Shown: positions 1,440 through 17,816 of the stretch, piece by piece | Position numbering within the stretch: the stretch's first letter is position 1 | Layout of the letters: every line of letters begins with the position of its first letter | Source of the DNA: Ruficoccus amylovorans | GTDB lineage: Bacteria; Verrucomicrobiota; Verrucomicrobiia; Opitutales; Cerasicoccaceae | Assembly: GCF_014230085.1 (NCBI RefSeq) | Contig: NZ_JACHVB010000034.1 | Location: 124,001-188,000, forward strand | DNA: 64,000 bases | Direction of reading: 5' to 3' | The notes under the pieces: generated by a model | What the model was told of the DNA's origin: nothing | The model's input: only the letters and a program-made list of their open reading frames with translations | The model's database searches: none | Program-made: the position numbers and the translations under genes

Positions 1440-2312
1440 TTACGACTTGGGGTCGAGGGCGTCGCGCAGGCCGTCGCCGAGGAAATTCAGGGAAAAGAGG
1501 GTGGCGGAAAAAAACAGGCTCGGGAAGATGAGCAGCCAGGGGTACTCCTCCATGCTCTCGGCTCCGGCGCGGATGAGGTCGCCCCAACTGGTTTGCGGGG
1601 GCTGCACGCCCAGTCCGAGGAAGCTGATGAACGCCTCCAGCAGCATGACGCCGGGCACGGTCAGGGTGGCATAGACGGTGATGACGCCGAGCAGGTTTGG
1701 CAGGAGGTGCTTGCGCATGATGCTGATGTGGTCCTGCCCGAGGCTGCGGGCGGCCTGAATGAATGCCTGCTCCTTGAGCCCGAGCACCTGCCCGCGTACG
1801 ATCCGGGCCATGGTCAGCCACTCGACCGCACCGATGGCGACGAAGATCAGCCACAGGTGCCGCCCGAAGACGACCATCAGGATGATGACAAAGACCGTGA
1901 ACGGCATGGAATAAATGATCTCGACGAAGCGCATCATGAGCCGGTCGGTGCGGCCCCCGGCGTAGCCGGAGACGATCCCGTAGCTCACGCCGATGACGAG
2001 CGCCACCGTGGTGGCGACGGCCCCGACCAGCAGCGAGACCCGCCCGCCGCTGAGGATGCGGGCCAGCAGGTCGCGGCCCAGCGTGTCCGTGCCCAGCCAG
2101 TGCTCCGCGCCCGGTCCGCTGGCTCCGAGGGCGAGGTTTTGCGTGTCGGGAGCGTGCGGCAGCAGCCACGGGCCGATGATACAGGCCAGCGTGACCAGTA
2201 CCGTGAAGGCGAGCCCGGCCATGGCCATGCGGTTGGCGCGCAGGCGTTCCCAGGCGTCCTGCCCGAGCGAGCGGCCCGAGACGGGGGCGGCTTTTTCTCC
2301 GAAGGGCTTCAC
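1440..2312 (-). CDS. oppC: Oligopeptide ABC transporter permease OppC
   Basis: A 290-residue inner-membrane permease of the OppC/DppC family. It has an N-terminal membrane segment, then NWL-type LGTDTLGRDLLARILSG, the membrane core, and the EAA loop ARSLGQDHISIMRKHLLPNL that contacts an ATPase. It ends GDGLRDALDPKS, typical of OppC. I place the start at a GTG at 2312: the GTGA overlaps the oppB stop by 4 bp and GGAGGAA precedes it. It is the last gene of oppA-oppB-oppC, which has no ATPase gene of its own. Confidence 0.92.
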   Translation of the reverse strand: MKPFGEKAAPVSGRSLGQDAWERLRANRMAMAGLAFTVLVTLACIIGPWLLPHAPDTQNLALGASGPGAEHWLGTDTLGRDLLARILSGGRVSLLVGAVATTVALVIGVSYGIVSGYAGGRTDRLMMRFVEIIYSMPFTVFVIILMVVFGRHLWLIFVAIGAVEWLTMARIVRGQVLGLKEQAFIQAARSLGQDHISIMRKHLLPNLLGVITVYATLTVPGVMLLEAFISFLGLGVQPPQTSWGDLIRAGAESMEEYPWLLIFPSLFFSATLFSLNFLGDGLRDALDPKS

Positions 2313-3226
2313 GCGAGTTTCCTCCGGGGGTTGAGCCAGACCAGCAGGATGTCCGAGATGAGATTGAAGAGAATAATCAACGCGGCGTAAAAGAGCACGC
2401 AACCGAGCACCATGAAGTAGTCGTTGTCGAGCGCGGCCTGCACGAAGAAACGGCCCAGGCCGGGGATGTTGAAAATCGTTTCGACGACAAAGGAGCCGCT
2501 GATCAGACCCGCCAGTGCCGGCCCCAGGTAGGAGACGACGGGGGAGAGGCCGTTGCGCAGGCCGTGCAGCAGGTACACGCGGGCCTCGGAGAGGCCCTTG
2601 GCGCGGGCGGTGCGCATGTAGTCCTCGCCACGGATTTCGAGCATGCTGGAGCGGGTTAGCCGTGCGATGTAGGCGGCGTAGAATAGCCCCAGCGTCAGCG
2701 CCGGGAGGATGCGGTCCTGCGGCAGATTCCAGCCCATGACGTTGACCAGGTGCAGTTTTAGGCCGAAGACGAGGATGAGCATCGGCCCGAGCACAAAGGT
2801 AGGCAGGCAAATGCCGAGCATGGCCAGGCTCATCGGGAGGGTGTCGGTGGCGGTGCGGGGTCGCCAGGCTGCCAGCACGCCGGAGCCGATCCCGAGCACC
2901 AGCGCGATACCCATTGCGAGTGCCCCCAGTTCGAAGGAGACGGGCAGCTTGCGGGCTATAATTTCGTTCACCGTCCAGCCCTGATATTTAAAGGTCGTGC
3001 CGAGGTCGCCGCGCAGGAGGTTGCCGAGGTAGCGGGCGTACTGGACGGGCAGGGGCTTGTCCAGGCCGTAGTAGGATTCAAGCTGCTGGCGGGTGACTTC
3101 GGGGAGTTCTTTCTCGCCGTCAAAGGGGCCGCCCGGCACCAGCCGCACCATGAAGAACGTGGCCGTCACGATGAGGAAAAGCACGAGGAGGGCCTCGATA
3201 AAACGCCTGAGGACGAAGGTCAGCAT
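2309..3226 (-). CDS. oppB: Oligopeptide ABC transporter permease OppB
   Basis: A 305-residue permease of the OppB/DppB family. It opens with the typical first membrane helix (FVLRRFIEALLVLFLIVT), a periplasmic region ending in YGLDKPLPVQYARYLGNLL, and the EAA loop RTARAKGLSEARVYLLHGL. It ends ILLVWLNPRRKLA. It forms the channel with OppC. The gene follows oppA after a 50-bp gap that carries a GTTTGAAA tandem array, and overlaps oppC by 4 bp, so the two permeases are probably translationally coupled. Confidence 0.93.
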   Translation of the reverse strand: MLTFVLRRFIEALLVLFLIVTATFFMVRLVPGGPFDGEKELPEVTRQQLESYYGLDKPLPVQYARYLGNLLRGDLGTTFKYQGWTVNEIIARKLPVSFELGALAMGIALVLGIGSGVLAAWRPRTATDTLPMSLAMLGICLPTFVLGPMLILVFGLKLHLVNVMGWNLPQDRILPALTLGLFYAAYIARLTRSSMLEIRGEDYMRTARAKGLSEARVYLLHGLRNGLSPVVSYLGPALAGLISGSFVVETIFNIPGLGRFFVQAALDNDYFMVLGCVLFYAALIILFNLISDILLVWLNPRRKLA

Positions 3227-3276: not shown

Positions 3277-4899
3277 TCATTGGGGGGAAAGGGAGGGGTC
3301 GAGCCAGACGTATTTGAAGGGATGCAGGTCGAGCAGGTTTGGGTACCAGCCCTGGACTTCGGGGCGCTTGAGGTAGATACGGTTGTAGAAATAAAGCGGC
3401 AGGAAAGGCATCTCGCGCATGAAGACGGCTTCGGCCTCACGGAGAACCTCCAACCGCTCGGTGGCGTCGGCGGTCATCTCGGACCGCTTGATGAGCGCGT
3501 CAAACTCCGGGCTGGACCAGCCGGAGTGGTTGAGCCCGGAGTCGCTGGTCCACATGGTCAGAAAGGTGCTGGCGTCGAAAAAGTCCCCGAACCAGCCGGC
3601 GCGGGCCATGTCGTAGTCGCCCTTTTTGCGCCGGTCGAGATAGACGGGCCAGGACTGGTTGACCAGCTCGACTTCGACGCCGAGGTTTTTCTGCCACATC
3701 TTTTGCAGGGCCTCGGCGATGGGGCGGTGCAGCTCGGAGGTGTTGTAAAGCAACTCCACGGCGGGGAAGCCCTTACCGTCCGGGTAACCGGCCTCGGCCA
3801 GCAGGGCGCGGGCGCGCTCCACGTCGTAGCGGATCGGGCTGGGGGGCGAGTGGTACGGTTCCATGTTCGGCGGGACGATGCCCAGGGCGATGGTCTCCTG
3901 ACCGCGGGTGACGGTATCGACGAGCGCCTGCCGGTCGATGGCGTCGTTAAAGGCTTCGCGCACGCGGGCGTCGTCGAAGGGCGGGCGGGCGGTGTTGAGC
4001 AGATAATAATAGGTGCCCAGCCAAGGGTCCATGTGCAGGTCGGGCGAGCCGCTGAGCCGGTAGGCGTCGCGCTTGCTCAGCGGGACCGAGTCGGTCACAT
4101 GGATCTGGCCCGAGCGGAAGGCCCGCTCCTCGGTGTTCTGGTTGGTGATGGGCAGGAAGGCGATGCCGTTGAGCCGCACCGTGTCCGCGTCCCAGTAGTG
4201 CGGGTTGCGCTCGACGAGGATGCGCTCGTTCAGGTTCCAGTCCACGAGCTGGAAGGGGCCGTTGGAAACGAGGTTGCCGGGCTTGGTCCAGCGGGTGTGC
4301 CGGTCGGTCATTTTGCCGAACTTCAGGATAGTGGCCGGGTGGACGGGGAAGTAGGCGTTGTGGCTGACAATGATCGGCAGGTGCGGGGTCGGCCCCTCGG
4401 TCTCAAGCTGCAGCGTGTGCGCGTCCAGCGCCTTGACCCCGACCTGGGAAAAATCCGTGATCTCTCCGGCGTTGAAGGCGCGGGCGTTTTTGAGGGGAAA
4501 GAGCAGCATGGCGTACTCGGCGGCGAAGGCCGGGCTGAGGATGCGCTCGTAGGAAAAGACAAAGTCCTCGGCGGTGACAGGGTCGCCGTTGGACCAGCGG
4601 GCCTCGGGGCGGAGCTTGAAGGTGTAGGTGGTGTGGTCGGTGTTATGCGTCCAGCTCTCGGCCACGCCGGGCTCGGGGGCGGAGGTGCGCGGGTTGGGCG
4701 TGGTCAGCCCCTCGAAGAGCGCGGTCTGGATGATGAACTCCGGCAGCCCGGTGGTAATCTGGGGGTCGAGGTCCTTGGGGTCGGCCCCGTTGCCGAGCAG
4801 GAGGATGCCTTCGGCGTTCGCCTTCTCGACCGGGGTGCGGGGACGCCCGCAGCCACCGAGCAGCATGAGAATAACCAGGATGGGAACGAGAAAGCGCAT
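3277..4899 (-). CDS. oppA: Oligopeptide-binding lipoprotein OppA
   Basis: A 540-residue extracytoplasmic solute-binding protein of family 5 (SBP_bac_5). The start is the ATG at 4899, one codon inside an upstream TTG. It gives a short lipoprotein signal peptide (MRFLVPILVILMLLGGC) with the lipidated Cys in LLGGC. The mature protein has the family hallmarks: LDPQITTGLPEF, AESWTHNTDHTTYTFKLR, WSNGDPVTAEDFVFSYERI and an ISNGPFQL-type NGPFQLVDW. It captures peptides for OppBC. Substrate specificity is not readable. It is first in an ATPase-less transporter operon. Confidence 0.93.
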   Translation of the reverse strand: MRFLVPILVILMLLGGCGRPRTPVEKANAEGILLLGNGADPKDLDPQITTGLPEFIIQTALFEGLTTPNPRTSAPEPGVAESWTHNTDHTTYTFKLRPEARWSNGDPVTAEDFVFSYERILSPAFAAEYAMLLFPLKNARAFNAGEITDFSQVGVKALDAHTLQLETEGPTPHLPIIVSHNAYFPVHPATILKFGKMTDRHTRWTKPGNLVSNGPFQLVDWNLNERILVERNPHYWDADTVRLNGIAFLPITNQNTEERAFRSGQIHVTDSVPLSKRDAYRLSGSPDLHMDPWLGTYYYLLNTARPPFDDARVREAFNDAIDRQALVDTVTRGQETIALGIVPPNMEPYHSPPSPIRYDVERARALLAEAGYPDGKGFPAVELLYNTSELHRPIAEALQKMWQKNLGVEVELVNQSWPVYLDRRKKGDYDMARAGWFGDFFDASTFLTMWTSDSGLNHSGWSSPEFDALIKRSEMTADATERLEVLREAEAVFMREMPFLPLYFYNRIYLKRPEVQGWYPNLLDLHPFKYVWLDPSLSPQ

Positions 4900-4936: not shown

Positions 4937-7036
4937 TCAATGCGCGTGCCGTCTTAAATCCAGGGTAAAGCGCATTTCCGGAAAGGTACGGGCGGGGGAG
5001 ACGGCGGCGGTCTCATTAGTCACGGGGACCTTGCGCCAGCGCTCGGCGGAGCGGGCGCGGGCCTCGTCGAGGTCGCTGGGGCGTCCGTCGTAAATGGGGG
5101 CATGTGGGTTCCAGTAGTAGTACCAGGCGGAGGCTTTGACCCGGCGGGATTTTTTCTCGATCCACTGGAAAAGCAGCGGGGCCTGGATCGGCACATGCGG
5201 GTGCAGCGCGGGCCAGCCGCTGGCGCACTTGTAGCGCAGGCCGCAGACGGGTTTGCCCCCGACGCTCTGCCAGGGGATTTCCACCCCGTTACACAGCAGG
5301 GTATGGGTCTGGAGCGGGGCCTTGGCGCTGAGAGAAAGCTCCAGCCGGTCGGTCGAATTGTCCACCATGCGCACGGTGGGGCCGCCAAGATTTTCCTCGG
5401 CCATGAGGGGCCAGGCTTCGAGCGCCTGGCGCACGGTCAGAGTTTCGCCGCCGGGCAGGTCCAGTTCGCCGCGCAGCGGGAAGCGGAACTCGGCCAGCGG
5501 GCGTAGCCACTCGCGCTTGAAATCAAAGCCGTGCGCCTTGAGGTCGCGGCAGATTTTACCTAAATCATCCCAGATGACGGCGGGCAGGAAGTACTTGTCG
5601 TGCAGTTCGGGGCCAAAGCGCCGCATCGGCTCGGTGAAGGGCTCCGCCGCCAGCCGGGCAATGACCGTGCGGATAAAAAGCCCGGCCAGACCGAGCATTT
5701 CCGCCGTTGGGAAGACCTCGAAGGCGCGCAGTTCAATGATGCCAGTCTTGCCATTGGGGGCGGCATAGTTGTGGAACTTGTCCACGCAGATTTCGGCGCG
5801 GTGGGTGTTGCCGCTGGAGTCGGTCAGGAGGTTGCGCAGCAGGCGGTCGATCTGCTCCGGGTCGGGTCGGGAATTTTCCAGTGCCTCGCAGGCCAGCTCC
5901 AGCTCGTAGGCGGCGTGGGTGCCGCTCTCGTCGATGCGCGGGGCCTGGCAGCCGGTGCCGACGTACTGGCCGGTAAAGAAGTAGCCCAGCGCGGGGTGGT
6001 GCTGCCAGTAGCGCAGGATGGAGGCCAGCAGCGCCGGGTCGCGGTGGAAGGGGTTGCGGGCCTCGTCGGGGCCGCCGAAGCACAGGTGCGAGCCGCCGCC
6101 AGTGGCCTGGACGGAGCCGTTGAGGTGGAGTTTGATCGCCCGCAGACCGGTAGATTCGGCGGTGGCGTACATTTGGTCGAGGCAGCGCCGGTAGGTGACC
6201 CAGTCGGGGCAGGGCGGGAGGTTGGCTTCCAGCACGCCGGGGTCGGCCGCGAGCGAGAACTTCTCCACCGTGGGGCCACAGTCAAAGGGAGCGTAACCGC
6301 AGAAGACCATTTCCCGCAGGTCGTGCTTCCGGGCCAGGGTGAAGATGAAGGCGACCAGTTCGCGGAAATGTGTCCACTCCAGCGGCGGGATGAAGACCTC
6401 CAGCGCGCCGTGGCGGACTTCGACGGTGAGCGCGCGCTTGAGTCGGTCGTCGTCCAACTGGTAAAGGGGCAGGCGCAGGCCGGCGGGGCTGTCGCCGGGG
6501 AACAGGCGCAGGGGCTGGCGGGCAGAGAAGGGCCACGGGTCGGAAATCCACTTGCCTTCCGCGTAATCGAGCGGGAGCACCCAGGCGGCGGTTTTGCGCT
6601 CGCCCTGCTCGACCGCGGGGAAGTCGCAGCCATCGAGGTCGAGATCAGCGGTCAGGCTTTTAATGAGTTTGCGGGCGCAGTCGGGGTCGTTGTGGCCGGG
6701 CTTGTCGTCGAGCATGAGACGCTCGGGCTCGGGCCAGAGCGCGGCCCCGGTGCTGGGGTGGAGGGTGAGCATGTTCCAGCGTGGGAGCGGCTCACCGGGG
6801 TAGTGCTTGCCAAAGACCTGCATGGCGAGCCCGCCGGGGTAGGCGATCTTCAGCAACTCGCGGGTGAAGCGCCGGGCGTAGCCGAGTTTCTCCTCGCCCA
6901 TGGCGGCGTTGTTCCACTCGGGGGCGTCGGGCCGGAGCGGGACAAAGGTTGGCTCGCCGCCCATCGTCAGGTGGATGTCGCGTTTGGCGAAAAAGGCTTC
7001 GACGGTGGCGGCGAGGGATTCCGGCGTGGATTTCAT
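4937..7036 (-). CDS. DUF2126 family protein (COG4196)
   Basis: A 699-residue cytoplasmic protein matching DUF2126, usually found as the C-terminal half of about 1100-residue transglutaminase-DUF2126 proteins; here it is separate. Recognisable pieces are the N-terminal HLTMGGEPTFVPL, RWNMLTLHPSTG, the central GSVQATGGGSHLCFGGP, and the C-terminal HVPIQAPLLFQWIEKKSRR and ASAWYYYWNPHAP. Comparative genomics of amidoligases placed this family in operons with circularly permuted ATP-grasp, alpha-E and transglutaminase proteins, as here; I recall it being assigned a glutamine-synthetase-like amidoligase fold. No biochemical function is established. It overlaps the upstream transglutaminase gene by 4 bp. 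Confidence 0.9.
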   Translation of the reverse strand: MKSTPESLAATVEAFFAKRDIHLTMGGEPTFVPLRPDAPEWNNAAMGEEKLGYARRFTRELLKIAYPGGLAMQVFGKHYPGEPLPRWNMLTLHPSTGAALWPEPERLMLDDKPGHNDPDCARKLIKSLTADLDLDGCDFPAVEQGERKTAAWVLPLDYAEGKWISDPWPFSARQPLRLFPGDSPAGLRLPLYQLDDDRLKRALTVEVRHGALEVFIPPLEWTHFRELVAFIFTLARKHDLREMVFCGYAPFDCGPTVEKFSLAADPGVLEANLPPCPDWVTYRRCLDQMYATAESTGLRAIKLHLNGSVQATGGGSHLCFGGPDEARNPFHRDPALLASILRYWQHHPALGYFFTGQYVGTGCQAPRIDESGTHAAYELELACEALENSRPDPEQIDRLLRNLLTDSSGNTHRAEICVDKFHNYAAPNGKTGIIELRAFEVFPTAEMLGLAGLFIRTVIARLAAEPFTEPMRRFGPELHDKYFLPAVIWDDLGKICRDLKAHGFDFKREWLRPLAEFRFPLRGELDLPGGETLTVRQALEAWPLMAEENLGGPTVRMVDNSTDRLELSLSAKAPLQTHTLLCNGVEIPWQSVGGKPVCGLRYKCASGWPALHPHVPIQAPLLFQWIEKKSRRVKASAWYYYWNPHAPIYDGRPSDLDEARARSAERWRKVPVTNETAAVSPARTFPEMRFTLDLRRHAH

Positions 7037-7920
7037 GGCAGTTCGCGGATGTTGAGTTCGACCTCCATGTGCGAGCTGACGGGCTCGTCATGGTAGTAGC
7101 GGCCCTGGACGGGGTTGACCCACGCCGGGTCGCTGGAGACGGCGGTGGGGATGAAAAAGTGGTTGGTGAGGATGCCGTTGGTCGGGTCGAAGCCCTTCCA
7201 GCCCGCGCCGGGGAGGTACACCTCCACCCAGGCGTGCATGGAGCCGTGGGCGCGGTTAAAGCTGTGCTCTCCGCCCTGGGCGGGCGGATCGTAGAGGTAG
7301 CCGCTGACGAAGCGCGCGGCCAGCCCGAGCTGGCGGCAGAGCGCTATCATGAGCACGGCCATGTCGCGGCAGGAGCCGGAGCGTTTTTCCAGCGTTTCGT
7401 CGGGGGTCTGGATGCCCATCTCGTCTCGCCGCTGATAGGTGATGTCGTTAAAGATGGCGGCGTTGATCTCGGAGAGGAAGGAGACGATGTTGTCGGAGCG
7501 CAGGGGGTTTTTGACCGCGTGATAGAACCAGTCCAGCACGCGGTTCGCGCCGGGGCTGACGCCTTCGCTCAGGTACGCGCCGAGGGCTTTTTCCTCGTGC
7601 GGGTGGTAGCGCATCGGGTAGGCCATGGCATGCGGATCGAGGATGAAATCGAAAGGGTTCTCCACTCGCAGACGCACCTGGATCAGCGCCGTGAACTCCA
7701 GCCGCTCGGAGATGCTGATCCCGAAGTCCGTCCGCAGCACGACGTTTTCAAAGCAGTCCCGCACCCAGCGGGTGGTGGATGCCGGGTAGGTTTCCAGCGA
7801 AAAATCCTGCGCGCGCACGACCTGGTTCTCCCGCGGGTAAAGAAAGAGCTGGTGGGCGCTGAAGCTCACCGGCCGGTCGTAGCGGTAGCGGGTGGTGTGG
7901 GCGATTTCGACCTGGATCAT
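7033..7920 (-). CDS. Transglutaminase-like protein (COG1305), first copy
   Basis: A 295-residue protein with the bacterial transglutaminase N-terminal beta domain (HTTRYRYDRPVSFSAHQLFLYPRE, split here by family variation) and a transglutaminase/protease-like core. The papain-type triad is complete: C184 in SGSCRDMAVLM, H229 in SMHAWVEVYLPG and D245 in WKGFDPTNG. No signal peptide is seen, so it is probably cytoplasmic. It is the third gene of the ATP-grasp/transglutaminase cassette and overlaps the DUF2126 gene by ATGA. It shares architecture but only moderate sequence with the second transglutaminase. Whether it cleaves or joins amide bonds is unknown. Confidence 0.9.
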   Translation of the reverse strand: MIQVEIAHTTRYRYDRPVSFSAHQLFLYPRENQVVRAQDFSLETYPASTTRWVRDCFENVVLRTDFGISISERLEFTALIQVRLRVENPFDFILDPHAMAYPMRYHPHEEKALGAYLSEGVSPGANRVLDWFYHAVKNPLRSDNIVSFLSEINAAIFNDITYQRRDEMGIQTPDETLEKRSGSCRDMAVLMIALCRQLGLAARFVSGYLYDPPAQGGEHSFNRAHGSMHAWVEVYLPGAGWKGFDPTNGILTNHFFIPTAVSSDPAWVNPVQGRYYHDEPVSSHMEVELNIRELP

Positions 7921-7926
7921 GAGAAG

Positions 7927-8017
7927 GGGAAATGGTTAAATGGCTAATTGTTAATTGTTGGTCTTGAGAAGCAGGACAATGGATGTTTTCTGAACAATGA
8001 GTCGTTTAACCATTCTC
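7927..8017. repeat. Degenerate copy of the dispersed hairpin repeat
   Basis: The gap between the two transglutaminase genes contains AATGGTTAAATGGCTAATTG followed by TTAATTGTTGG, the same 7-8 bp units as copies A and B. After about 40 bp a partly complementary arm follows, ACAATGAGTCGTTTAACCAT. The outer GTAGCCAC sequence of the other copies is absent, so this is a diverged or shortened member. Confidence 0.6.
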
Positions 8018-8024
8018 TCGCCTC

Positions 8025-8915
8025 TCAGCCCTTGGCTTCGGCCAGTTTCTTCGGGCGTCGCCGCTTCAGGGTGACAATGACCTGGAGCCGCTGGTCCTGC
8101 GCGCCCTTGTAAGCGCCGCGCATGGGGGCCACGTCGTTGTAGTCGCGCCCGCAGGCCACGCGCACGTGGCGCAGACCGGCGGCCTGATTGTTGGTCGGGT
8201 CCAGCCCGTACCAGTGTCCGCCGGGGAGGTAAACCTCGACCCAGGCGTGGCTGGCGGCGGCTCCGGTCATCTCCGCGCCGGGCTGGGTCGGGTCGTAGGG
8301 CTCGATGTAGCCGCTGACGTAGCGGGCCGGGATGCCCTGCATGCGCAGGATGGCCAGCATGAGATGCGCGAAGTCCTGGCAAACGCCCTGCCGGGTCTCC
8401 AGCACGGTGGGCAGCGGGGTGCCGATGTCGGTGCTGCCGGGCGAGTAGGCGAAGTTCTCGTAAATCCAGGTGTTGAGCCCGTGGACGGCCTCGCCGATGC
8501 TCTCGGCATCGCGGAAGTTCGGGCGGTCCACCTTGTCCTTGATTCGGTAAAAGGACACCAGCTCGGTGTTCTGGATAAAGTCGAAAATCCCGATGGGCTG
8601 GCTGGCCAGGATCTGGCGGGCGTCGCCGATAGGAGTCTCCAGCACGCGGGAAAGGTCCGGGCCCTCGCGGGTCTCGACTTCGCCCACGGCATTGACGGAC
8701 AGTTCGTTGTGGCGGAAGGGGATGGAGAAATATTCGACCTTGTTGCCGAAGTAGTCCGTGTAGTGATCGACCGGCACGTTCGGGGTAATCTCCAGCTTGT
8801 GGCTGAGGATTTTCTGGGTCGGCCCGTTCTGGGGCCACACGCGCAGCTCGGCGTAAGACTCCGAGGCCGGAGTCTTGTAGCGGTAGCGGGTGGTGTGGGT
8901 GACTTTGAATCTCAT
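8025..8915 (-). CDS. Transglutaminase-like protein (COG1305), second copy
   Basis: A 296-residue protein with the bacterial transglutaminase N-terminal domain (HTTRYRYKTPASESYAELRV) and catalytic core. The triad is C179 in RQGVCQDFAHLML, H223 in ASHAWVEVYLPGG and D239 in WYGLDPTNN. The C-terminal CGRDYNDVAPMRGAYKG is characteristic of COG1305 proteins encoded beside COG2307/COG2308. It overlaps the upstream ATP-grasp/alpha-E gene by 4 bp (ATGA) and is separated from the next gene by 104 bp holding a hairpin repeat. The family is thought to act on peptide amide bonds made by its operon partners, but this is untested. Confidence 0.92.
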   Translation of the reverse strand: MRFKVTHTTRYRYKTPASESYAELRVWPQNGPTQKILSHKLEITPNVPVDHYTDYFGNKVEYFSIPFRHNELSVNAVGEVETREGPDLSRVLETPIGDARQILASQPIGIFDFIQNTELVSFYRIKDKVDRPNFRDAESIGEAVHGLNTWIYENFAYSPGSTDIGTPLPTVLETRQGVCQDFAHLMLAILRMQGIPARYVSGYIEPYDPTQPGAEMTGAAASHAWVEVYLPGGHWYGLDPTNNQAAGLRHVRVACGRDYNDVAPMRGAYKGAQDQRLQVIVTLKRRRPKKLAEAKG

Positions 8916-11485
8916 TCGTCTTCGGCGGGCCAGCTGAGCGGCAGTTGGCGCTCGGGATAAAACTCGGTCTGGTGGCTGAAAAAAGTGTCTTCGAACTGCT
9001 CGTGTAGCAATTCCAGTTCCCGTGTGAGCGATTCGAGAATAAATTTCATCTCCGGGCGCGGGGCAGCGGTTTCTTCCGGGCTGCCGTGGTCCAGCTCGTT
9101 GACCGAGGAGGGCATGAGCCGGTTAAGCGGCAGGTTTTCGACCTTGGCAATAATCTTGTCCACCGATTCGTCGAGCGTGCGGGGGGCGTTGCCGGGGCCG
9201 GAGATGGAGAGCGTGCTGATGGCGTAACGCAGTTGGCGCAGGCAATGGCTGACGGAACTCGGGTTGCAGGCGTTTTGCAGCAACAGGTTGACCACACGCT
9301 CCAGGTAGGCGCGGGAGCGGAACTCGCGCCGGTAGGCGTCGAGGGAGGTGAGCAGGCGCAGCAGGGAGGTGAGGTCGGCCTCGTCGGCGTTGCCCTCCTC
9401 GCGATTGGACTGGACCCAGGCCAGGACTTCGCGCAGGACGGTCGCCGTGCCCTGTGCCCGCTCGACGAATGAGCCGATACGGAAAAACTGCCACGAGTCG
9501 TCGTGGAGCATGGTGCGGTCGGCGGTCCCGGCGAGCCGGGCCGCGTCGTCCACGATGCGCTGGCAAATCTCGCGCAGACGGGTGCGGGAGGGGTTGGGCT
9601 TTTGGGCGGCCTCTTGCAGGAACCAGTAAAATTCGCTCAAGACCTGCCAGACTTCCGGGCTGATAGAGTCGCGGATGTGCTGCGCACCGAGGTAGGCGGC
9701 GGTGGCGCTGGAAAGGATGGACGAGGGCTCGTCGGCCTTGAGCACGAGTGCCCGGGTCAGGGCGAGGGTATCCTTGGGGGGCGACTTGCGGCGCGACCAC
9801 TGGCTCTGGCCGTTGGCGGCGGCCACGGCTTTCCACAGTGGCCAGTAGCTGCGCTGCGCGCCGCGCCCGAGCTGGTCCCAGCGGAGGGTTTCGAGGATGT
9901 TGATCTGGCGGGCGGTGTTCTGCATCCGCTCCAGGTAGCGGCCCGTCCAGTAAAGGCCCTCGGCCAGGCGGGAGCTGATGGAGTACTCGTCGGGATTGAG
10001 CGTGACCGTGCCGGGAGTGGACGCGTACTCGAAGGGCTGGGCCGGAACCCAGGTGTCCTTCATGCCCTCGGACATGATGGTGAGCGGGTTGTCGCGGTGG
10101 AGGCCCCAGCTCTGGCGGGTCAGCCCGCCGGGCAGGACGGCTGGTCTTTCGCCGAGCTGGAAAAACACCCGCAGGTACACGCTGTGCGACTTGAAGCCCT
10201 CGTTTTCGTAACAGGGAAGCTGCGAGGGATGCAGGTAGGGCTGGGCGACGAAGAGGTGCGGCCAGCGGCGGGCCAGGCGCAACAGGTGGTTACGTTTTTC
10301 AGGAAGCTTTCTCCCTCCCAGATAACGGTATAGGGTATAGCTGTCCTGAATCGGCTTGAGGACCATTTCGTCCTTGTTCGAGACGATGTAGTCGAACTGG
10401 TCCCGGTCGGCGCAGTTGTAGGTGGGGACGGATTCGAGGATGGCGTGCTCTTGCAGGTAAAAGCCGATCAGTTGCCGCGAATACCGCAGCAGGGCGCGGT
10501 TGTCGGCCACGCCGCAACCCAGGGCGTTGACGAAGCGCACGGTGCCGTTGCGCACGCAGTTGACGATCCCCGGGATGCCCGGCAGGCCGCTTTCGGCGAA
10601 GGCGATGGGGTCGATGGCGGCGCTGGCCAGCCGCCGGTAAATCACGTCCACCTGCTCCAGCCCGCGAATGGTCTTCAGGAAAACCCGGCCCTCGCGGATA
10701 AGCAGGTCCGCCGGGCGCACCATGGCGATCCCGAGTTGGCGGGCCAGGAAGCTCTCGTCAAAGTACGCCTGGTTGGTTTCGCCGCGGGTGAGCAGGACGA
10801 TGTGCGGGTTGGACTGGCCGGAGGCGGCACGGAGGTTTTCGGAAAACTGCGTGATGAACGGCGCGACCGGGCTGATGTCCATCGACTGGAACAACTCTGG
10901 AAAGGCCTGCGCGAGCATGCGCCGATTCTGCATGACGAAGGACAGTCCGAAAGCTGTCGCCATATGGTTCTCCAGCACGCGCCAGTAGCCGTCCTCGCCT
11001 CGGACGAGGTCGAAGGCCCCGATATGGCAATACTGCCCGCCGGGTACATCGACCGTGGTCAGCGGGCGCTGAAAGGCCGGGTCGCCCAGCGCGATGCCGT
11101 ACGGGAGGATGCGCTGGCGCAGGATTTCCTGCCCGTTGTGCATGTCCCGGATAAACGCGTTGAAGGCGCGGGCGCGTTGGAGGATGCCCTCGCGCAGCAG
11201 TTCCCACTCGTCGCGGGGGATGATCCGCGGGAGCACATCTAGCCTCCAGTCGGCTTCGCGGGGCTTGCCCTCCTCGACCACACCGAAGTGGATGCCCACG
11301 TCGCGAGCCGAACGCTCCAGCCGCTCCTGGCGCTCACGCACATCGGCGGGGCTGAGGGACTCGAAGACCTCCATCACGGGCGCGTAGTGCGAAGCCTCGC
11401 CATGCGCGGGATGGGTGAGTTCATCGCGTGTGCTGTTGGCGGCCTTGAAGTGTGCGTACTTGCGTTGCTTGCGGGCGGCGGTCAT
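8912..11485 (-). CDS. Circularly permuted ATP-grasp / alpha-E fusion protein (COG2308-COG2307)
   Basis: An 857-residue fusion of two proteins that are often separate. Residues from about 40 to 510 form a circularly permuted ATP-grasp (COG2308): PRIIPRDEWELLREGILQRA, GVDV-type TTVDVPGGQYCHIGAFDLVR, VLENHMATAFGLSFVMQNRR, LLTRGETNQAYFDESFLARQ and the ATP-binding DEMVLKPIQDSYTLY. Residues from about 520 onward form the helical alpha-E domain (COG2307): SISSRLAEGLYWTGRYLERM, ADRTMLHDDSWQFFRIGSFVE and ERVVNLLLQNACNPSSVSHC. ATP-grasp enzymes ligate a carboxylate to an amine, so the likely role is peptide-type ligation; the substrate is unknown. It heads the four-gene cassette. Confidence 0.93.
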   Translation of the reverse strand: MTAARKQRKYAHFKAANSTRDELTHPAHGEASHYAPVMEVFESLSPADVRERQERLERSARDVGIHFGVVEEGKPREADWRLDVLPRIIPRDEWELLREGILQRARAFNAFIRDMHNGQEILRQRILPYGIALGDPAFQRPLTTVDVPGGQYCHIGAFDLVRGEDGYWRVLENHMATAFGLSFVMQNRRMLAQAFPELFQSMDISPVAPFITQFSENLRAASGQSNPHIVLLTRGETNQAYFDESFLARQLGIAMVRPADLLIREGRVFLKTIRGLEQVDVIYRRLASAAIDPIAFAESGLPGIPGIVNCVRNGTVRFVNALGCGVADNRALLRYSRQLIGFYLQEHAILESVPTYNCADRDQFDYIVSNKDEMVLKPIQDSYTLYRYLGGRKLPEKRNHLLRLARRWPHLFVAQPYLHPSQLPCYENEGFKSHSVYLRVFFQLGERPAVLPGGLTRQSWGLHRDNPLTIMSEGMKDTWVPAQPFEYASTPGTVTLNPDEYSISSRLAEGLYWTGRYLERMQNTARQINILETLRWDQLGRGAQRSYWPLWKAVAAANGQSQWSRRKSPPKDTLALTRALVLKADEPSSILSSATAAYLGAQHIRDSISPEVWQVLSEFYWFLQEAAQKPNPSRTRLREICQRIVDDAARLAGTADRTMLHDDSWQFFRIGSFVERAQGTATVLREVLAWVQSNREEGNADEADLTSLLRLLTSLDAYRREFRSRAYLERVVNLLLQNACNPSSVSHCLRQLRYAISTLSISGPGNAPRTLDESVDKIIAKVENLPLNRLMPSSVNELDHGSPEETAAPRPEMKFILESLTRELELLHEQFEDTFFSHQTEFYPERQLPLSWPAEDE

Positions 11486-11567: not shown

Positions 11568-12359
11568 CTAGAATCGCGGGACGGCGGCGAGGAGTTTTTT
11601 CGTGTAGTCGGACTGCGGGTTGGCGTAAATCTCGTCCGCCGGGGCCTGTTCGACGATTTTGCCGCCGGTCATGACGAGCACGTCGTCGCTGATGTGCTCA
11701 ACCACGGCCAGGTCGTGCGCGATGAAAAGGTAGGTTAACCCCAGCTCTTCCTGAAGGTCCTGGAGCAGGTTGATGATCTGGGCCTGGATAGACACGTCGA
11801 GCGCGCTGACCGGCTCGTCGCAGATGATGAACTCCGGCTCCACGGCGAGGGCACGGGCGATGCCGATGCGCTGGCGCTGCCCGCCGGAAAACTCGTGCGG
11901 GTAGCGGTCCATCTGCTCGGCGGTCAGCCCGACGCGCTCCAGCAGTTGGGCCACACGGGCGCGGCGGTCGTTCTTCGTCATGCGCGGGAAGTGGATTTCC
12001 AGCGGCTCGGCCACGATCTGGAAAATCGTCATGCGCGGGTTGAGCGAGTTAAACGGGTCTTGAAAGACCATCTGCATGCGCTTGCGCACGGGAAAAAACT
12101 CGCTCTCGGACAGCCCGGTCAACTCGGTCCCGTCAAAGCGGATCGATCCCGCCGTGACCGGCGCAAGCCGGATGAGCGAGCGCCCGATAGTGGTCTTGCC
12201 GCTGCCGGATTCGCCGACCAGCCCGGTGGTCTTGCCCCGGCGGCAGGTGAACGACACCCCGTCCACCGCCCGCACATGGTCGGTTACGCGGCGCATCAAC
12301 CCGCTGTACACCGGGTAGTGGACTTTGAGGTCGGTCACTTCTAACAAAGGAGCTGTCAC
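11568..12359 (-). CDS. oppF: Oligopeptide ABC transporter ATPase OppF
   Basis: A 263-residue ABC ATPase of the OppF/DppF type. Walker A is [11 protein letters not shown], the Q-loop is [16 protein letters not shown], the signature is [15 protein letters not shown], Walker B is [13 protein letters not shown] and the switch histidine is in [11 protein letters not shown]. The OppF insertion between strand 1 and Walker A ([20 protein letters not shown]) distinguishes it from OppD. The start is GTG. It lacks most of the C-terminal oligopeptide-transporter Fe-S extension of longer homologues. It is last in the second opp operon and may also energise the ATPase-less set downstream. Confidence 0.93.
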
Positions 12360-12478: not shown

Positions 12479-13312
12479 CTAACTCCCCAGTGTGGCGTAG
12501 TCGATGGTGGTGAGGCGCTTCTCGTGGGCACCGAGGCGGGGGATGCAGGCGATGAGGGCCTTGGTGTAGGGGTGTTGCGGATTGCGCAAAACCTCTTCGG
12601 TCGGCCCGGCCTCGACAATCTCGCCCCGGAACATGACCACGACCCGGTCGGCGAAGCCGGAGACGATCCCGAAGTTGTGCGTGATGAGGATGATCGACAT
12701 GGTGCGGCGCTGGCGCAGGTCGGCCAGCAGGTCCATGATCTGTTTCTGGATGGTCACGTCGAGCGCGGTGGTGGGCTCGTCGGCCACGAGGATGCGCGGC
12801 TCGCAGGCCAGCGCCATCGCGATCATGACGCGCTGCTGCATGCCGCCGGAAAGCTCGTGCGGGTAGGCGCGGTGGCGCTTCTCGGGATCGCGGATGCCGA
12901 CCGAGCGCAGCGCTTCGATCACGCGCCCGGTCACGTCTTTCTCTTGCGGGAAGTGCAGCCGGATCGCCTCGGCGATCTGGTTGCCGATGGTAAAAACCGG
13001 GTTGAGCGAAGTCGAGGCGTCCTGAAAAATGTACGCGATGTCCCGGCCCCGGATGCCGCGCAGTTCGCGCGGGCTCATCGCCATCACGTCGCGGCCGTCG
13101 TAGAGGATTTTTCCCGACACCCGGCAGCCCGGCGGCGGCGGCAAGAGCCGGGTCAGCGAGAGCGCGGTGACGGATTTGCCACTGCCGGACTCCCCGACCA
13201 CGGCCAGCGTCTCACCCTCCTGAAGCGCGAACCCGATCCCCTTGACCGCCTCCAGCGTGCGCTCGCGGTTGTGGAAGGAGATCTTCAGGTCTTCGATTTT
13301 CAGGAGGTCCAT
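12479..13312 (-). CDS. oppD: Oligopeptide ABC transporter ATPase OppD
   Basis: A 277-residue ABC ATPase of the OppD/DppD type. Walker A is GESGSGKSVTALS, the Q-loop is YIFQDASTSLNPVFTIG, the signature is LSGGMQQRVMIAMAL, Walker B is ILVADEPTTALD and the switch histidine is in LITHNFGIVSG. The C-terminal GPTEEVLRNPQHPYTKALIA is the OppD/OppF tail. The ATG at 13312 follows the fused permease gene by a 155-bp gap filled with an inverted tandem-repeat element. It pairs with OppF to power the permeases. Confidence 0.94.
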   Translation of the reverse strand: MDLLKIEDLKISFHNRERTLEAVKGIGFALQEGETLAVVGESGSGKSVTALSLTRLLPPPPGCRVSGKILYDGRDVMAMSPRELRGIRGRDIAYIFQDASTSLNPVFTIGNQIAEAIRLHFPQEKDVTGRVIEALRSVGIRDPEKRHRAYPHELSGGMQQRVMIAMALACEPRILVADEPTTALDVTIQKQIMDLLADLRQRRTMSIILITHNFGIVSGFADRVVVMFRGEIVEAGPTEEVLRNPQHPYTKALIACIPRLGAHEKRLTTIDYATLGS

Positions 13313-13467: not shown

Positions 13468-15999
13468 CTACTGCTGGGACCGCGTGCGCGGATCAACAAT
13501 ATCCCGCAGGGTATCGCCGATGAGGTTGAAGGCAATCACGGTTATGAAGATAGCTGCGCCCGGCGTGAGCAGCCACCAGAAGTTGAGGAAGAAGACTTTC
13601 ATGTCCTGCTGGGACTGCTGGAGCATCAGCCCCCACGAGGCGGAGGGCTCCTGAATGCCCAGCCCGAGAAAGCTCAAGGCGGCCTCGCCCAGAATGTAGC
13701 CGGGGATGGAGAGTGTGGCGGCGACCAGCAGGTAGCTGGCGAGGTTGGGCAGAAGGTGTTTTAAGAGGATTTTCCCGGTTCCCTGGCCCATGCTCTCGGC
13801 GGCGAGGATGAATTGCCGCGAGCGGATGGACAGGCTCATCCCGCGCAGGACACGGGCGGTCCCGGCCCAGCCCACGAGCGAGAGGATGATAATGATGACC
13901 ACAAACATCTGCCCGGACTCGAAGTGCGGGGCCAGCGCCGAACGCAGCGCCAGCAGCAGGTAGAGGCCGGGGATGGCCATGAGAAACTCCACCAGCCGCA
14001 TGGCCAGAAAGTCGAAGCGCCCGCCAAAGTACCCGGCCAGTCCGCCCACGAGGAAGCCGACTGTCATGGTAATCCCGATACCGATCAGGCCGATGGTGAG
14101 CGAAATTTGCGAGCCGAAGAGCAAGCGCGAATAAATGTCGCGGCCGGTCGAGTCGCTGCCCAGCAGAAAGACCGGGTACGCCGCCGGGTCGATCTCGTGG
14201 CCGAGCTTTTGCTCCAGTGCCGCGTAGTCGGGCAGCAGCAGGTGGCGGTTGGTTTTGATGAACCCGAACAACTCGTACTCGAAGCCCTTGCCGAAGATTT
14301 TCAGGGGGATGCTTTCCCCCGCGACCGGTTCGTACTTGGCGGCGGTGGGGTCGATGTTCTCGTAAATCCTGATCGCCGGGCCGCCGTCCCAGGTCAGGGC
14401 GGTGGGCGGGTGAAAGGTCTGGCCGAGGTTGAGGTCGGACACGCGGTGCGTGGCCAGAAACGGCGCGAAGGCCGCCCCGAAGTACAACGCGCCCAGCACG
14501 CAGGCGGCGGCCAGCCCGACCGGGCGGCGCACCAGTTGCCGGGCGATGGTGACGAAGGTCGGCCAGGCTACTTTTATAATAAAGGCGGCGACCAGCAACA
14601 GGACGGTCAGTCCGGCCCACTTGACCCACGCGATGAGCGCCTGCATGGCCCCGGTGTCACCCCAGGGGATGTAGGAAATCCCGGCCAGGATGGCCACAAC
14701 CACGGCGACGAGGGCGGCGGCGGGCTTCCACTGGCCCTTGCGGGCGATGCCGCCGGTGCCGGACTCCAGCCGGATGCGCGGGTCGCTCCAGGCCAGCAGC
14801 AGGTCGGCCACGAGGTTGCCCAGCATGAGCATGGTGCAGCCCATCATGACCGCCGCCAGCACCACGGCGTGGTCCTTGCGGGTAAAGGCTTCAAACACCA
14901 GCAGCCCCAGGCCGGGGTAGTTCATGACCTTTTCCACCAGCACCGCGCCGCTGAGCAGACCCGCCAGCGCGAAGCCGAGCGAGGTCAGCAGCGGGTTGAT
15001 GGCGTTGCGCAGGACGTGCCGGAACATGATAGCCCGCTCGGACACGCCCTTGGCCCGCGCCGTCGTGACAAAGTCCGACTGCATGTAGTCGAGGAAGTTG
15101 GCGCGCATGATGCGCATCATCCCGGCGATGCTTCCGACCCCGAGCACGAAGGTCGGCAGGATCAGGTGGTGGGCGTAGTCGGCCCAGCGGGCGGGCAGCG
15201 GCATGAAGCTGCTGGCCAGTGAGGACAGCCCCCCGGTCGGGAAAAGCCCGGACTTGGCCGCGAAGAAGACCATCAGGATGGCGAGGAAAAACTCGGGGAT
15301 CGACAGCGCCGCGTAGGCGAAGATCGAGCTGAGCCGGTCAAAGAGCCGGTTGCGCCGGATCGCCGCCAGCACGCCCATTGGCACGGCCACCACCCAGGCG
15401 AAAGCCAGCGCGCAGAGCGAGAGCGCGAAGGTGGCGGGCAGGCGTTGGGCGATGAGGTCCGCCACCGGGATGTTGTAGGCCCAGGACTGGCCGAGGCTCG
15501 GCTTGCCCCAGCGCAGGTCAAGGATGGTGTAGGTCCGCGTGACCACTCGCTCCTGCCAACGGTAGGCGACGAGCCGCTGCGGGCCGTTGTCGCCCGTGCG
15601 GTGGAGCAGGGTGGGCAGGGGGGCGCTCTCGAAGGGCGAGCGCAGCGCCTCCGCCGTGCGTGTGAGCCGTTTCGCCAGCGGGGTGATCTTTTCCGGCGGC
15701 ACCGGGGCGAAGACCGTTTCCCGCACGGTCTTGCTCTCGTGGCCGAGGAATTTCAGGGGCGAGAGGTTATTTAACCAAAACGCGTACTGCACGTACCAGG
15801 CGGTCGGCTCGCCTTTGGCATCGACCAGCCCGTAGTCGCGCTCCATCTGGGCGATCAGTTCGGCGGAAATATCGGGCCGGGCACGGGCTTCGCTGAGGAA
15901 GTCGCCGGGGGCGAGGCTCATCAGGTAAAAGACCAGCGCGCTGACCCCGAAGAGCACCGGGATGACGGACAGGAGGCGGCGGATGATGAAGCTGATCAT
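13468..15999 (-). CDS. Fused oligopeptide permease OppB-OppC (single chain)
   Basis: An 843-residue protein carrying two complete permeases. Residues 1 to about 390 are OppB-like: ISFIIRRLLSVIPVLFGVSA, PVADLIAQRLPATFALSLCA, the EAA loop TARAKGVSERAIMFRHVLR and LLLAWSDPRIRL. A linker of about 110 residues with extra membrane segments follows. The rest is OppC-like: FLLGSDSTGRDIYSRLLFGS, the EAA loop AESMGQGTGKILLKHLLPNL and GDTLRDIVDPRTRSQQ. I see no stop or frame change between the halves, so both ABC half-channels are one chain. The start is the ATG at 15999, overlapping the oppA stop by 4 bp. Confidence 0.93.
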   Translation of the reverse strand: MISFIIRRLLSVIPVLFGVSALVFYLMSLAPGDFLSEARARPDISAELIAQMERDYGLVDAKGEPTAWYVQYAFWLNNLSPLKFLGHESKTVRETVFAPVPPEKITPLAKRLTRTAEALRSPFESAPLPTLLHRTGDNGPQRLVAYRWQERVVTRTYTILDLRWGKPSLGQSWAYNIPVADLIAQRLPATFALSLCALAFAWVVAVPMGVLAAIRRNRLFDRLSSIFAYAALSIPEFFLAILMVFFAAKSGLFPTGGLSSLASSFMPLPARWADYAHHLILPTFVLGVGSIAGMMRIMRANFLDYMQSDFVTTARAKGVSERAIMFRHVLRNAINPLLTSLGFALAGLLSGAVLVEKVMNYPGLGLLVFEAFTRKDHAVVLAAVMMGCTMLMLGNLVADLLLAWSDPRIRLESGTGGIARKGQWKPAAALVAVVVAILAGISYIPWGDTGAMQALIAWVKWAGLTVLLLVAAFIIKVAWPTFVTIARQLVRRPVGLAAACVLGALYFGAAFAPFLATHRVSDLNLGQTFHPPTALTWDGGPAIRIYENIDPTAAKYEPVAGESIPLKIFGKGFEYELFGFIKTNRHLLLPDYAALEQKLGHEIDPAAYPVFLLGSDSTGRDIYSRLLFGSQISLTIGLIGIGITMTVGFLVGGLAGYFGGRFDFLAMRLVEFLMAIPGLYLLLALRSALAPHFESGQMFVVIIIILSLVGWAGTARVLRGMSLSIRSRQFILAAESMGQGTGKILLKHLLPNLASYLLVAATLSIPGYILGEAALSFLGLGIQEPSASWGLMLQQSQQDMKVFFLNFWWLLTPGAAIFITVIAFNLIGDTLRDIVDPRTRSQQ

Positions 16000-17816
16000 T
16001 CGTCGATGGCCTCCTCGGTCCACAGTTCGTCGAGGTTCCAGACCAGGCTGCCGGAGGGCGGCACGACGACGTTGTTCCACTTGTTCTTGATCCCGCTGTA
16101 GCTGTACGGCGTGACCAGGTAGAGCAGCGGGACTTCTTCGGCCAGGATGGCCTGGATTTCCCCGAAAATCTTCACCCGCTCGGCTTCGTCAAAGGTCCGC
16201 TCCTGCGCGGTGACCAACTCGTCAATGCGGGCCTCCCAGTCGGTAGCCGGGGTTTCCTGCTCGGCGTTCCAGATGTGGTAAATGCCGTCGCTGGCGAAGA
16301 GGGCCTTGCTGCCCGAGGGGTCGGAGGCCCCGGCGCTGGAGCCCCAGCCGATGGCGCTCATCTCGTAGTCGTAGGTGTTGTCGATCTTCTGGATAACCAC
16401 GGCGAAGTCCACGTAGTTGATGCGCAGGGCGATGCCGATGCCGGCGAGGTTTTCCTTCAGGGTGGTGGCCATTTCCGACATGCGGGGGCTGCTGTCGTAG
16501 AGCAGCAGCTCGATCTCGACCCGGTGTCCGCCGGGGCCGAAAAGCTCGCCCGCTTCGTTCCAATCAAAACCCGCCTCGCGCAGGAGTTCGCGGGCCTTGT
16601 CCGGGTTGTAACGGTACTTGGGGACATCGGGGTTGTGCCACTTGGGGTTGCCCTGCGAGATGATCGAGTCCAGCGGCGCGGCTCGCCCGAAGTACACGCC
16701 CCTGGCGATGCCTTCGCGGTTGTAGGCGTACATGATGGCCTGCCGGAAGCGTTTGTCCTGAAACCACGCCATCTTGTACGGGGGGACGTAGGGCACGCCG
16801 TTTTTGTCCGTGCCGGGTTTCAAGTTGAACCAGAAAAAGCTGACTTGCGGCGTGGGGCCGCGCTCGTAGAGCGTGAAGTCGTGGGCCTGCTCGCCCTTGC
16901 GGACCCAGGCCTCGTCGGAGGCGGAAATCGCGGCGGCGTCAATCTGCCCGGTGGCGAAGAGCACGACGTCGGCGTTCTGGTCCTTCATGTACTTGACCAC
17001 GAGAAAGTCGATGTAGGGCAGACGCTGGCCCTCGCGGTCGGCCCGCCAGTAGTGCGGGTTGGGCTCGTAGACGATGCGCTCGCCGGGGTGGTAGGAGAAG
17101 ACCTTGAACGGCCCCAGCCCGACCAGTTCCTCCGGGTGCTCGATGGCGGTCTGGGTGGACCACTGCTCCAGCAGGGTGCCGTCCTTGAAGGCGGCGTAGA
17201 GCTTGTGCTTGGGGATGATGGGGGCGAAGCCGATGTCGTTGAGAAAGGGCGAATACAACTGCGGGGTGTAGAATTCGACCGTGTACTGGTCGATCTTGCG
17301 GTAGCGGATGCGCTCGCCGCCGATGGTGTATTGGCCGATGTAGCGGTTGGGGAAGCGGGGGCGCATCTGGCCGGTCTGCGGGTCGCGCTCCTCGGCGAAG
17401 ATGCAGTCGAAGGTGAAAATAACGTCGTCGGCGCTGAAAGGCTCCCCATCGCTCCACGAGATGCCCCGGCGCAGGTGAAAGGTGTAGGTCTTCTTGTCCT
17501 CGCCGATTTCCCACGACTCGGCCAGAGCGGGGATATTCTCGGTCTTGACCGGGTCCCAGCCGACCAGCCCGACGAGGAACTTCCCCATGGCCGAGGACGA
17601 GGCCGCGTCGCTGGGGACGAGGAAGTTAAACGTCTTCGGCTCGGTCACCTCGGTCAGAATGAAAACCCCGCCGTACTGGCCCGGCTCACACTGGGCGGTT
17701 TCCACGCCCTCGGGCAGCGGATACTGGCCGCGCTCGACCTTCGGGGGTTCGCCACAGGAAGCGAGTAACAAGGCGGCGACAAGGCCGATGCTCCCGGCCA
17801 GCGTGGAGCGAAACAC
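15996..17816 (-). CDS. oppA: Oligopeptide-binding lipoprotein OppA (second)
   Basis: An SBP_bac_5 family peptide-binding lipoprotein of about 606 residues. Family blocks are ALAESWEIGEDKKTYTFHLR, WSDGEPFSADDVIFTFDCI, LGPFKVFSYHPGERIVYEPN and a C-terminal PLLYLVTPYSYSGIKNKW. I chose a GTG at 17816 because it gives a normal lipoprotein signal (FRSTLAGSIGLVAALLLASC). A TTG at 17966 would put about 50 arginine-rich residues ahead of that signal. It heads the second transporter operon and overlaps the fused permease gene by ATGA. It is only distantly similar to the first OppA, so the two probably bind different ligands. Confidence 0.9.
   Translation of the reverse strand: MFRSTLAGSIGLVAALLLASCGEPPKVERGQYPLPEGVETAQCEPGQYGGVFILTEVTEPKTFNFLVPSDAASSSAMGKFLVGLVGWDPVKTENIPALAESWEIGEDKKTYTFHLRRGISWSDGEPFSADDVIFTFDCIFAEERDPQTGQMRPRFPNRYIGQYTIGGERIRYRKIDQYTVEFYTPQLYSPFLNDIGFAPIIPKHKLYAAFKDGTLLEQWSTQTAIEHPEELVGLGPFKVFSYHPGERIVYEPNPHYWRADREGQRLPYIDFLVVKYMKDQNADVVLFATGQIDAAAISASDEAWVRKGEQAHDFTLYERGPTPQVSFFWFNLKPGTDKNGVPYVPPYKMAWFQDKRFRQAIMYAYNREGIARGVYFGRAAPLDSIISQGNPKWHNPDVPKYRYNPDKARELLREAGFDWNEAGELFGPGGHRVEIELLLYDSSPRMSEMATTLKENLAGIGIALRINYVDFAVVIQKIDNTYDYEMSAIGWGSSAGASDPSGSKALFASDGIYHIWNAEQETPATDWEARIDELVTAQERTFDEAERVKIFGEIQAILAEEVPLLYLVTPYSYSGIKNKWNNVVVPPSGSLVWNLDELWTEEAIDE

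Follow-up and report, generated by a model that had tools for sequence, protein, structure and literature searches.

A cassette of ATP-grasp/Alpha-E, transglutaminase-like and DUF2126 genes flanked by oligopeptide transporter genes in Ruficoccus amylovorans

Gene content of the eleven-gene run

The window analysed here is a stretch of 64,000 nucleotides from the genome of Ruficoccus amylovorans (G000, contig C34). On its minus strand, eleven genes follow one another in the order OppA-OppBC-OppD-OppF, ATP-grasp/Alpha-E, TG2, TG1, DUF2126 and OppA-OppB-OppC. The run begins with an upstream OppA (15996..17816), which matches Pfam SBP_bac_5 (2.4e-81) and has a lipoprotein-like start; a GTG start is presumed for this gene within an open reading frame that extends to 17966, and its top NCBIfam match is Opp4A, under the cut-off of that model. 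Its stop codon is overlapped by the gene for a permease of 843 aa (13468..15999) in which OppB and OppC are fused, two BPD_transp_1 stretches being contained in a single open reading frame and the two halves resembling Opp4B and Opp4C (NCBIfam, below cut-off). Upstream-type OppBC was also encountered as a single open reading frame in G001, G004 to G009, G077, G114 and, cut by a contig end, G026, and as two genes in G002, G003 and G089. The ATPase genes follow as OppD (12479..13312), with ABC_tran and oligo_HPY matches in Pfam, and OppF (11568..12359), with an ABC_tran match, the end of OppF lying 82 bp from the cassette.

The first cassette gene (8912..11485) encodes a protein of 857 aa in which Alpha-E is joined to a circularly permuted ATP-grasp (Pfam CP_ATPgrasp_1/2 and Alpha-E). 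Next come two transglutaminase-like genes, both recognised by Pfam and both with Cys, His and Asp motifs: TG2 (8025..8915), which is of the stand-alone type and matches 3isr (E 5.2e-16), and TG1 (7033..7920), which the tree described below suggests to be the counterpart of the N-terminal transglutaminase in TG-DUF2126 fusions. The cassette ends with a short form of DUF2126 (4937..7036; 699 aa; Pfam 1.5e-177) that contains, according to a structure model, a glutamine-synthetase (GS) fold domain. Pfam matches were far over the cut-off for all four genes. The four-gene order and the limits 4937-11485 given in the initial annotation proved exact when compared with open reading frames and Pfam matches, the strand being the minus strand; the overlaps it had reported at two of the three junctions are likewise present, amounting to 4 bases each (8912-8915 and 7033-7036), and TG2 and TG1 are separated by a gap of 104 bases.

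Downstream of the cassette, an OppA gene (3277..4899; Pfam 1.1e-103; lipoprotein-like start) begins 37 bp past DUF2126 and is followed by OppB (2309..3226; Pfam BPD_transp_1; top NCBIfam match OppB PRK09471, below cut-off) and by OppC (1440..2312; BPD_transp_1 and OppC_N), whose GTG start overlaps the OppB stop and which ends the run. When compared to solved OppA proteins, the downstream OppA gave a best E of 3.9e-105 (2z23), and in the alignment with 1b05 it keeps the positions of D419, W416, R413, R404, W397 and H371 of Salmonella-type OppA, which we take to be main-chain peptide contacts. Two flanking Opp operons on the same strand had been claimed and both are present, but the downstream one lacks OppD and OppF, and is therefore an incomplete transporter by itself, and the permease of the upstream one is a single fused gene. 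Gaps of 82 and 37 bp correspond to operon-like spacing and to nothing beyond that. No terminator-like site was found in the OppF/ATP-grasp gap or in the DUF2126/OppA gap, and there is no exporter gene within the eleven-gene run.

The oligo_HPY domain is the C-terminal mark of OppD and OppF. In the whole genome of G000, two oligo_HPY matches were obtained, both in the OppD and OppF of this locus, in a search that a diverged pair could escape, the OppF match having reached 29.8 bits where 27.1 is required (and having remained below the cut-off in the window search) in a genome that is 97.8% complete. Similarly, the OppF protein as query gave one match in G000 at E <= 1e-60 (six of 43 candidates scored). 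A single oligo_HPY pair is also present in G008, G006, G001, G003 and, across a contig break, G009, and four oligo_HPY matches each were found in G007, G002, G004 and G005. As the only OppDF-type pair detected is the upstream one and the downstream OppABC has none of its own, the latter may borrow the upstream pair; if no other OppDF pair exists in G000, it must do so, co-transcribed or not. In G007 and G008, the downstream OppA-OppB-OppC stays with the cassette while upstream-type OppDF is located elsewhere, so that sharing of the ATPases would need no linkage; a second OppDF pair is present in G007. Two permeases on one ATPase pair, together with several OppA proteins, are described for the Opp system of Borrelia burgdorferi in the abstract of PMC5736914, which, unlike the situation found here, does not mention a ligase/peptidase cassette.

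Cassette proteins and their relation to the TG-DUF2126 fusion

The ATP-grasp domain aligns to 3n6x over residues 47-480 (E 1e-84) and is thus similar to glutathionylspermidine-synthase-like ATP-grasp proteins, the molecule name of 3n6x (glutathionylspermidine synthase) being itself 'putative'. Folding of the Alpha-E domain (8915-10024) alone led to an all-helical model with a pLDDT of 83.8, for which Foldseek gave no match at E <= 0.001. The top VIA match, a membrane helix bundle with a Z of 10.5, falls within the noise that the tool states for helical bundles, and the model is not taken to point to a particular fold.

For DUF2126, no solved relative was found by sequence at E <= 0.1. Its structure model (pLDDT 88.9) gave as its best 50 structure matches only glutamine synthetases and GS-like ligases, with a top Z of 12.3 (rmsd 4.0, 255 aligned residues), and Foldseek returned one chain at E <= 0.001; the model thus predicts the fold of the GS catalytic domain. 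Residues E28, H317, R367, D369, E370, E435 and R437 are invariant in all 28 sequences aligned and may be equivalents of the metal- and ATP-binding residues of GS.

In order to place the two transglutaminases, a tree was calculated from 32 sequences: random draws of 12 from the 70 fusion N-termini and of 11 from the 46 stand-alone transglutaminases, and in addition those of the window and its relatives. TG1 was placed among the fusion N-termini and TG2 among the stand-alone transglutaminases, with values of 100/100 on both sides. Median scores of TG1 were 157 bits versus the 70 fusion N-termini and 81 bits versus the 46 stand-alone transglutaminases, and those of TG2 were 70 and 164 bits, respectively; two of the ten best matches of TG1, including the top one, are stand-alone transglutaminases. 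The tree placement indicates that the cassette corresponds to the usual set, except that its TG-DUF2126 fusion is split: judged by sequence, TG1 and DUF2126 represent the two parts of the common fusion, and TG2 is the usual stand-alone transglutaminase. The possibility that the four genes constitute a new set was rejected on the basis of family matches, the tree and 80 named loci (L043-L122), among which the combination of the fusion with ATP-grasp/Alpha-E and a transglutaminase is common; the cassette is a split version of a widespread set. The fused cassette of Pseudomonas, Bradyrhizobium, Methylobacterium and others has the same five domains, TG1 and TG2 group with their counterparts there, and DUF2126 aligns. 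In the fused cassette, however, TG-DUF2126 is one protein of typically 1,100-1,200 aa, whereas in the window TG1 and the 699-aa DUF2126 are encoded by separate genes with a 4-bp overlap, and the gene order and the flanking Opp genes of the window also set it apart.

DUF2126 was present in 67 of the 372 Opitutales genomes searched, at 46 places in the short and at 25 in the long form, four genomes having both, and neighbourhoods were retrieved for all 46 short-form loci and for 20 of the 25 long-form ones. A separate transglutaminase gene directly precedes the short DUF2126 in 38 of the 46 loci; none was seen in G030, G048, G076, G287, G230, G294, G205 and G358, some of which are cut by contig ends. 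Judged by gene sizes, ATP-grasp, Alpha-E, transglutaminase, TG1 and DUF2126 all appear as separate genes arranged in a row in G231, G318, G306, G187 and G332 (L123, L126, L127, L136, L137), an all-split version of the module; the Alpha-E label, stemming from a model built on full-length fused proteins, does not separate both domains. In G006 (L177, L193), ATP-grasp/Alpha-E is located beside OppDF, a TG2-TG1 pair is found elsewhere and no DUF2126 match was obtained, which may mean that DUF2126 can be lost from the module. G000 itself contains a second set (C13:181439-187741) with separate ATP-grasp and Alpha-E genes and, a few kb off, a 761-aa frame with a transglutaminase match.

Recurrence of the transporter junctions in related genomes

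OppA is located directly 3' of DUF2126, on the same strand, in five of the nine DUF2126-bearing genomes of family f1, namely in the genus, where all four genomes show it, and in a member of another genus, with gaps of 37 bp in G000, G007 and G009, 81 bp in G008 and 82 bp in G005. OppB and OppC after a downstream-type OppA were seen only in the genus; with a model made from few sequences, no permease was recognised beside downstream-type OppA in G001, G002, G004, G005 and G006. Orthologs of the downstream OppA (50-85% identity) occur in all ten family genomes, including G006, which is without DUF2126. Outside family f1, OppA adjoins DUF2126 in none of 37 short-DUF2126 loci of Opitutales. The retrieved flanks contained an SBP5-type gene in six of the 46 short loci, the sixth being G105 at a distance of 4.95 kb; these flanks reach at least 5 kb on both sides in 34 loci and at least 2 kb downstream in 42, with less in G061, G328, G368 and G301. 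An SBP5-type gene was found in one of the 20 long-DUF2126 loci (G003, 5.5 kb away and on the opposite strand) and an SBP5-type match in none of the 80 named loci, whose flanks vary, some contigs being short and L063 giving no match of any kind.

At the other end of the cassette, an upstream-type OppF was found beside ATP-grasp/Alpha-E in four of 28 loci with ATP-grasp/Alpha-E of the window type; the four belong to three genera and two families. The gap between OppF and ATP-grasp/Alpha-E is 82 bp in G000, 36 bp in G006 and 3 bp in G026, a member of family f18 in which OppD is cut by a contig end and OppA-OppBC lies at the end of another contig; in G009, an ApbA/PanE-like gene on the opposite strand is located between the two. 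No such OppF was seen in the other 24 loci, of which G063 has no upstream sequence and G301, G089 and G001 have 0.4, 1.4 and 3.8 kb, respectively. OppD-like matches adjoining the ATP-grasp/Alpha-E gene of G108 or close to that of G120 were discarded as not belonging to Opp, since they scored 40-82 bits with specific OppD/F models compared to 390-590 bits for true ones; the starts of these sequences read like ABC-F proteins.

In a class sample of 384 genomes, ATP-grasp/Alpha-E was detected at E <= 1e-120 in 46, and, among the matches listed for these, OppF was present in 26, on the same contig in five and within 3 kb in two (G000 and G006). An OppF-like match at E <= 1e-60, a threshold that also admits other OppF-like ATPases and hence not always the same transporter, was obtained in 339 of the 384. 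Of the 132 genomes of the order, 40 gave a strong match to the upstream OppA (>480 bits), and 22 of these 40 are not among the 28 cassette-type genomes examined. Together with the ortholog of the downstream OppA in the family genome that lacks DUF2126, this means that the Opp transporters also occur without the cassette. In G001 to G004, four of the nine DUF2126-bearing family genomes, both transporters are on other contigs than the cassette.

Such a distribution is compatible with an incidental neighbourhood, in which cassette and Opp genes were joined in an ancestor and their adjacency was inherited or lost by lineage with no joint work of the products: the downstream OppA is kept throughout the family whatever the cassette does, upstream OppA and OppF-like proteins are frequent in order and class, and neither an OppA next to short DUF2126 outside the family nor an SBP5-type match in the named loci was encountered. 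We regard this explanation as quite possible. It is countered by the fact that two different junctions, with gaps below 100 bp, are kept across genera, one of them also in another family, and by a rough random-position model, in which 0.006-0.015 OppF junctions are expected and one origin has a probability of about 1% and three independent origins of less than 1e-6, the junctions of G026 and G009 coming from the order sample and not from the class sample. The trees differ in the placement of G006, which groups with G005 in the ATP-grasp/Alpha-E tree (100/100) and with the genus in the tree of the upstream OppA (87/97), and they do not decide between one and several origins.

The initial annotation had named cassette and opp genes at unrelated loci in relatives as a sign of chance proximity, and the relatives are divided on this point, the genes being apart in G001 to G004 while junctions recur in other genera. 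The link between cassette and peptide import that it had drawn is partly supported: it is kept in the genus for the downstream OppA, and either junction recurs across genera in a few relatives, but it is local and was not seen in most loci examined. Flanking Opp genes as a general trait of the cassette were rejected, given their absence from most loci in the order, class and named-locus surveys. The Opp flanking looks non-random but local.

Readings of the locus and nitrogen-linked relatives

The module of ATP-grasp/Alpha-E, transglutaminase and DUF2126 occurs in many bacteria. Among 5.39 million open papers, none contained the word DUF2126, no report on a substrate of the module was found, and what was read under related terms consists of proposals and expression data. 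According to excerpts of PMC5491218, the genes I35_5080-83 of Burkholderia cenocepacia H111 (DUF404/407, DUF403, transglutaminase and large transglutaminase) are NtrC/sigma54-dependent, as is a dipeptidase with its dipeptide transporter. These genes are clustered as in the window, and the large transglutaminase presumably carries DUF2126; nitrogen control was measured there, and the same excerpts name the four genes without a transporter among them. For Pseudomonas putida, parts of PMC8050072 report PP_2685 (Anbu) and PP_2688 (circularly permuted ATP-grasp) to be higher on nitrate than on ammonium, and, for marine metagenomes, the text available from PMC3597751 gives a correlation of DUF403, DUF404, DUF407 and the transglutaminase N-domain with domains of urea metabolism.

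Our preferred explanation, which we hold tentatively, is that a ligase/peptidase module works within a peptide-uptake locus, where one OppDF serves two importers and imported peptides are processed for nitrogen recovery or storage. It starts from the observed gene content and order, their recurrence in relatives, the predicted fold and the detection of no other OppDF-type gene. The module would combine an ATP-grasp resembling glutathionylspermidine synthase, to which helical Alpha-E is fused, with a putative GS-fold ligase (DUF2126) and two transglutaminase-like enzymes. The eleven genes probably form one or two transcription units, and one OppDF pair probably powers both OppA1-OppBC1 and OppA2-OppB2-OppC2. 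Oligopeptides would be imported into the cytosol, where the module would cut amide bonds and join them anew, either in such a peptide or in a product made out of it, and this turnover may serve to recover or store nitrogen; a role in nitrogen recovery that is supplied by peptide uptake is suggested by the nitrogen-linked literature on related genes, as far as excerpted (PMC3597751, PMC5491218, PMC8050072, PMC6376114). Against the preferred explanation stand the absence of the linkage from most relatives examined, the occurrence of the transporters without the cassette and the lack of a sigma54-type site at the locus.

That the run is a composite operon, in which one OppDF drives two receptors and permeases and the enzymes encoded in between use the peptides taken up to make an amide-linked nitrogen store or signal for later release by the two transglutaminases, seems unlikely to us; if true, this would be the first case of an orphan DUF2126/Alpha-E module with a dedicated substrate supply. 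The model of the initial annotation, by which a peptide-like product of the cassette is trimmed, released and taken back up via the flanking Opp systems, could draw on the location of importers next to genes for two ligase families and two transglutaminase-like proteins, but with no exporter gene in the run and with importers occurring in genomes without the cassette we consider it improbable, and an import of precursors or of peptides rich in nitrogen would suit the locus no less than the re-import of a product.

Excerpts of PMC6376114 and PMC5666114 describe an Anbu operon with ATP-grasp, Alpha-E and transglutaminase families like those found here, and summarise the work of Iyer et al. (2009), in which a tagging/de-tagging system was proposed for this operon family. 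Unlike in that operon as excerpted, there is no Anbu in the window, DUF2126 and a second transglutaminase are present, and ATP-grasp and Alpha-E are fused. In the Yersinia Anbu operon, according to parts of PMC6376114, the ATP-grasp protein releases phosphate from ATP, and no peptidase activity was observed for Anbu. The absence of the proteasome-like (Anbu) partner, as already noted in the initial annotation, was confirmed, no proteasome-type (Anbu/HslV) gene being found in the ten genomes of family f1 with PF00227 at E <= 0.001, a search that was positive in 10 of 14 controls. A tagging or de-tagging of proteins or peptides unrelated to import, although proposed for these same families (PMC6376114 and PMC5666114, in the portions available), is very doubtful here in view of the lack of Anbu or HslV matches in G000 and its family and of the linkage to Opp.

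Taken together, the linkage to OppA and OppDF and the nitrogen control that the excerpts describe for relatives of these genes from Burkholderia and Pseudomonas narrow the candidate substrates down to imported oligopeptides, with growth on peptides as the only source of nitrogen as a testable condition. What is new here is that the TG-DUF2126 fusion is split, that both junctions recur and that one OppDF pair may be shared. No sigma54-type site was detected at the locus; the window contains one match with one mismatch, compared to 1.94 expected, on the other strand and inside the downstream OppA. A sigma54-dependent NtrC-type response regulator is encoded at 34567-36222, 23 kb from the cassette.
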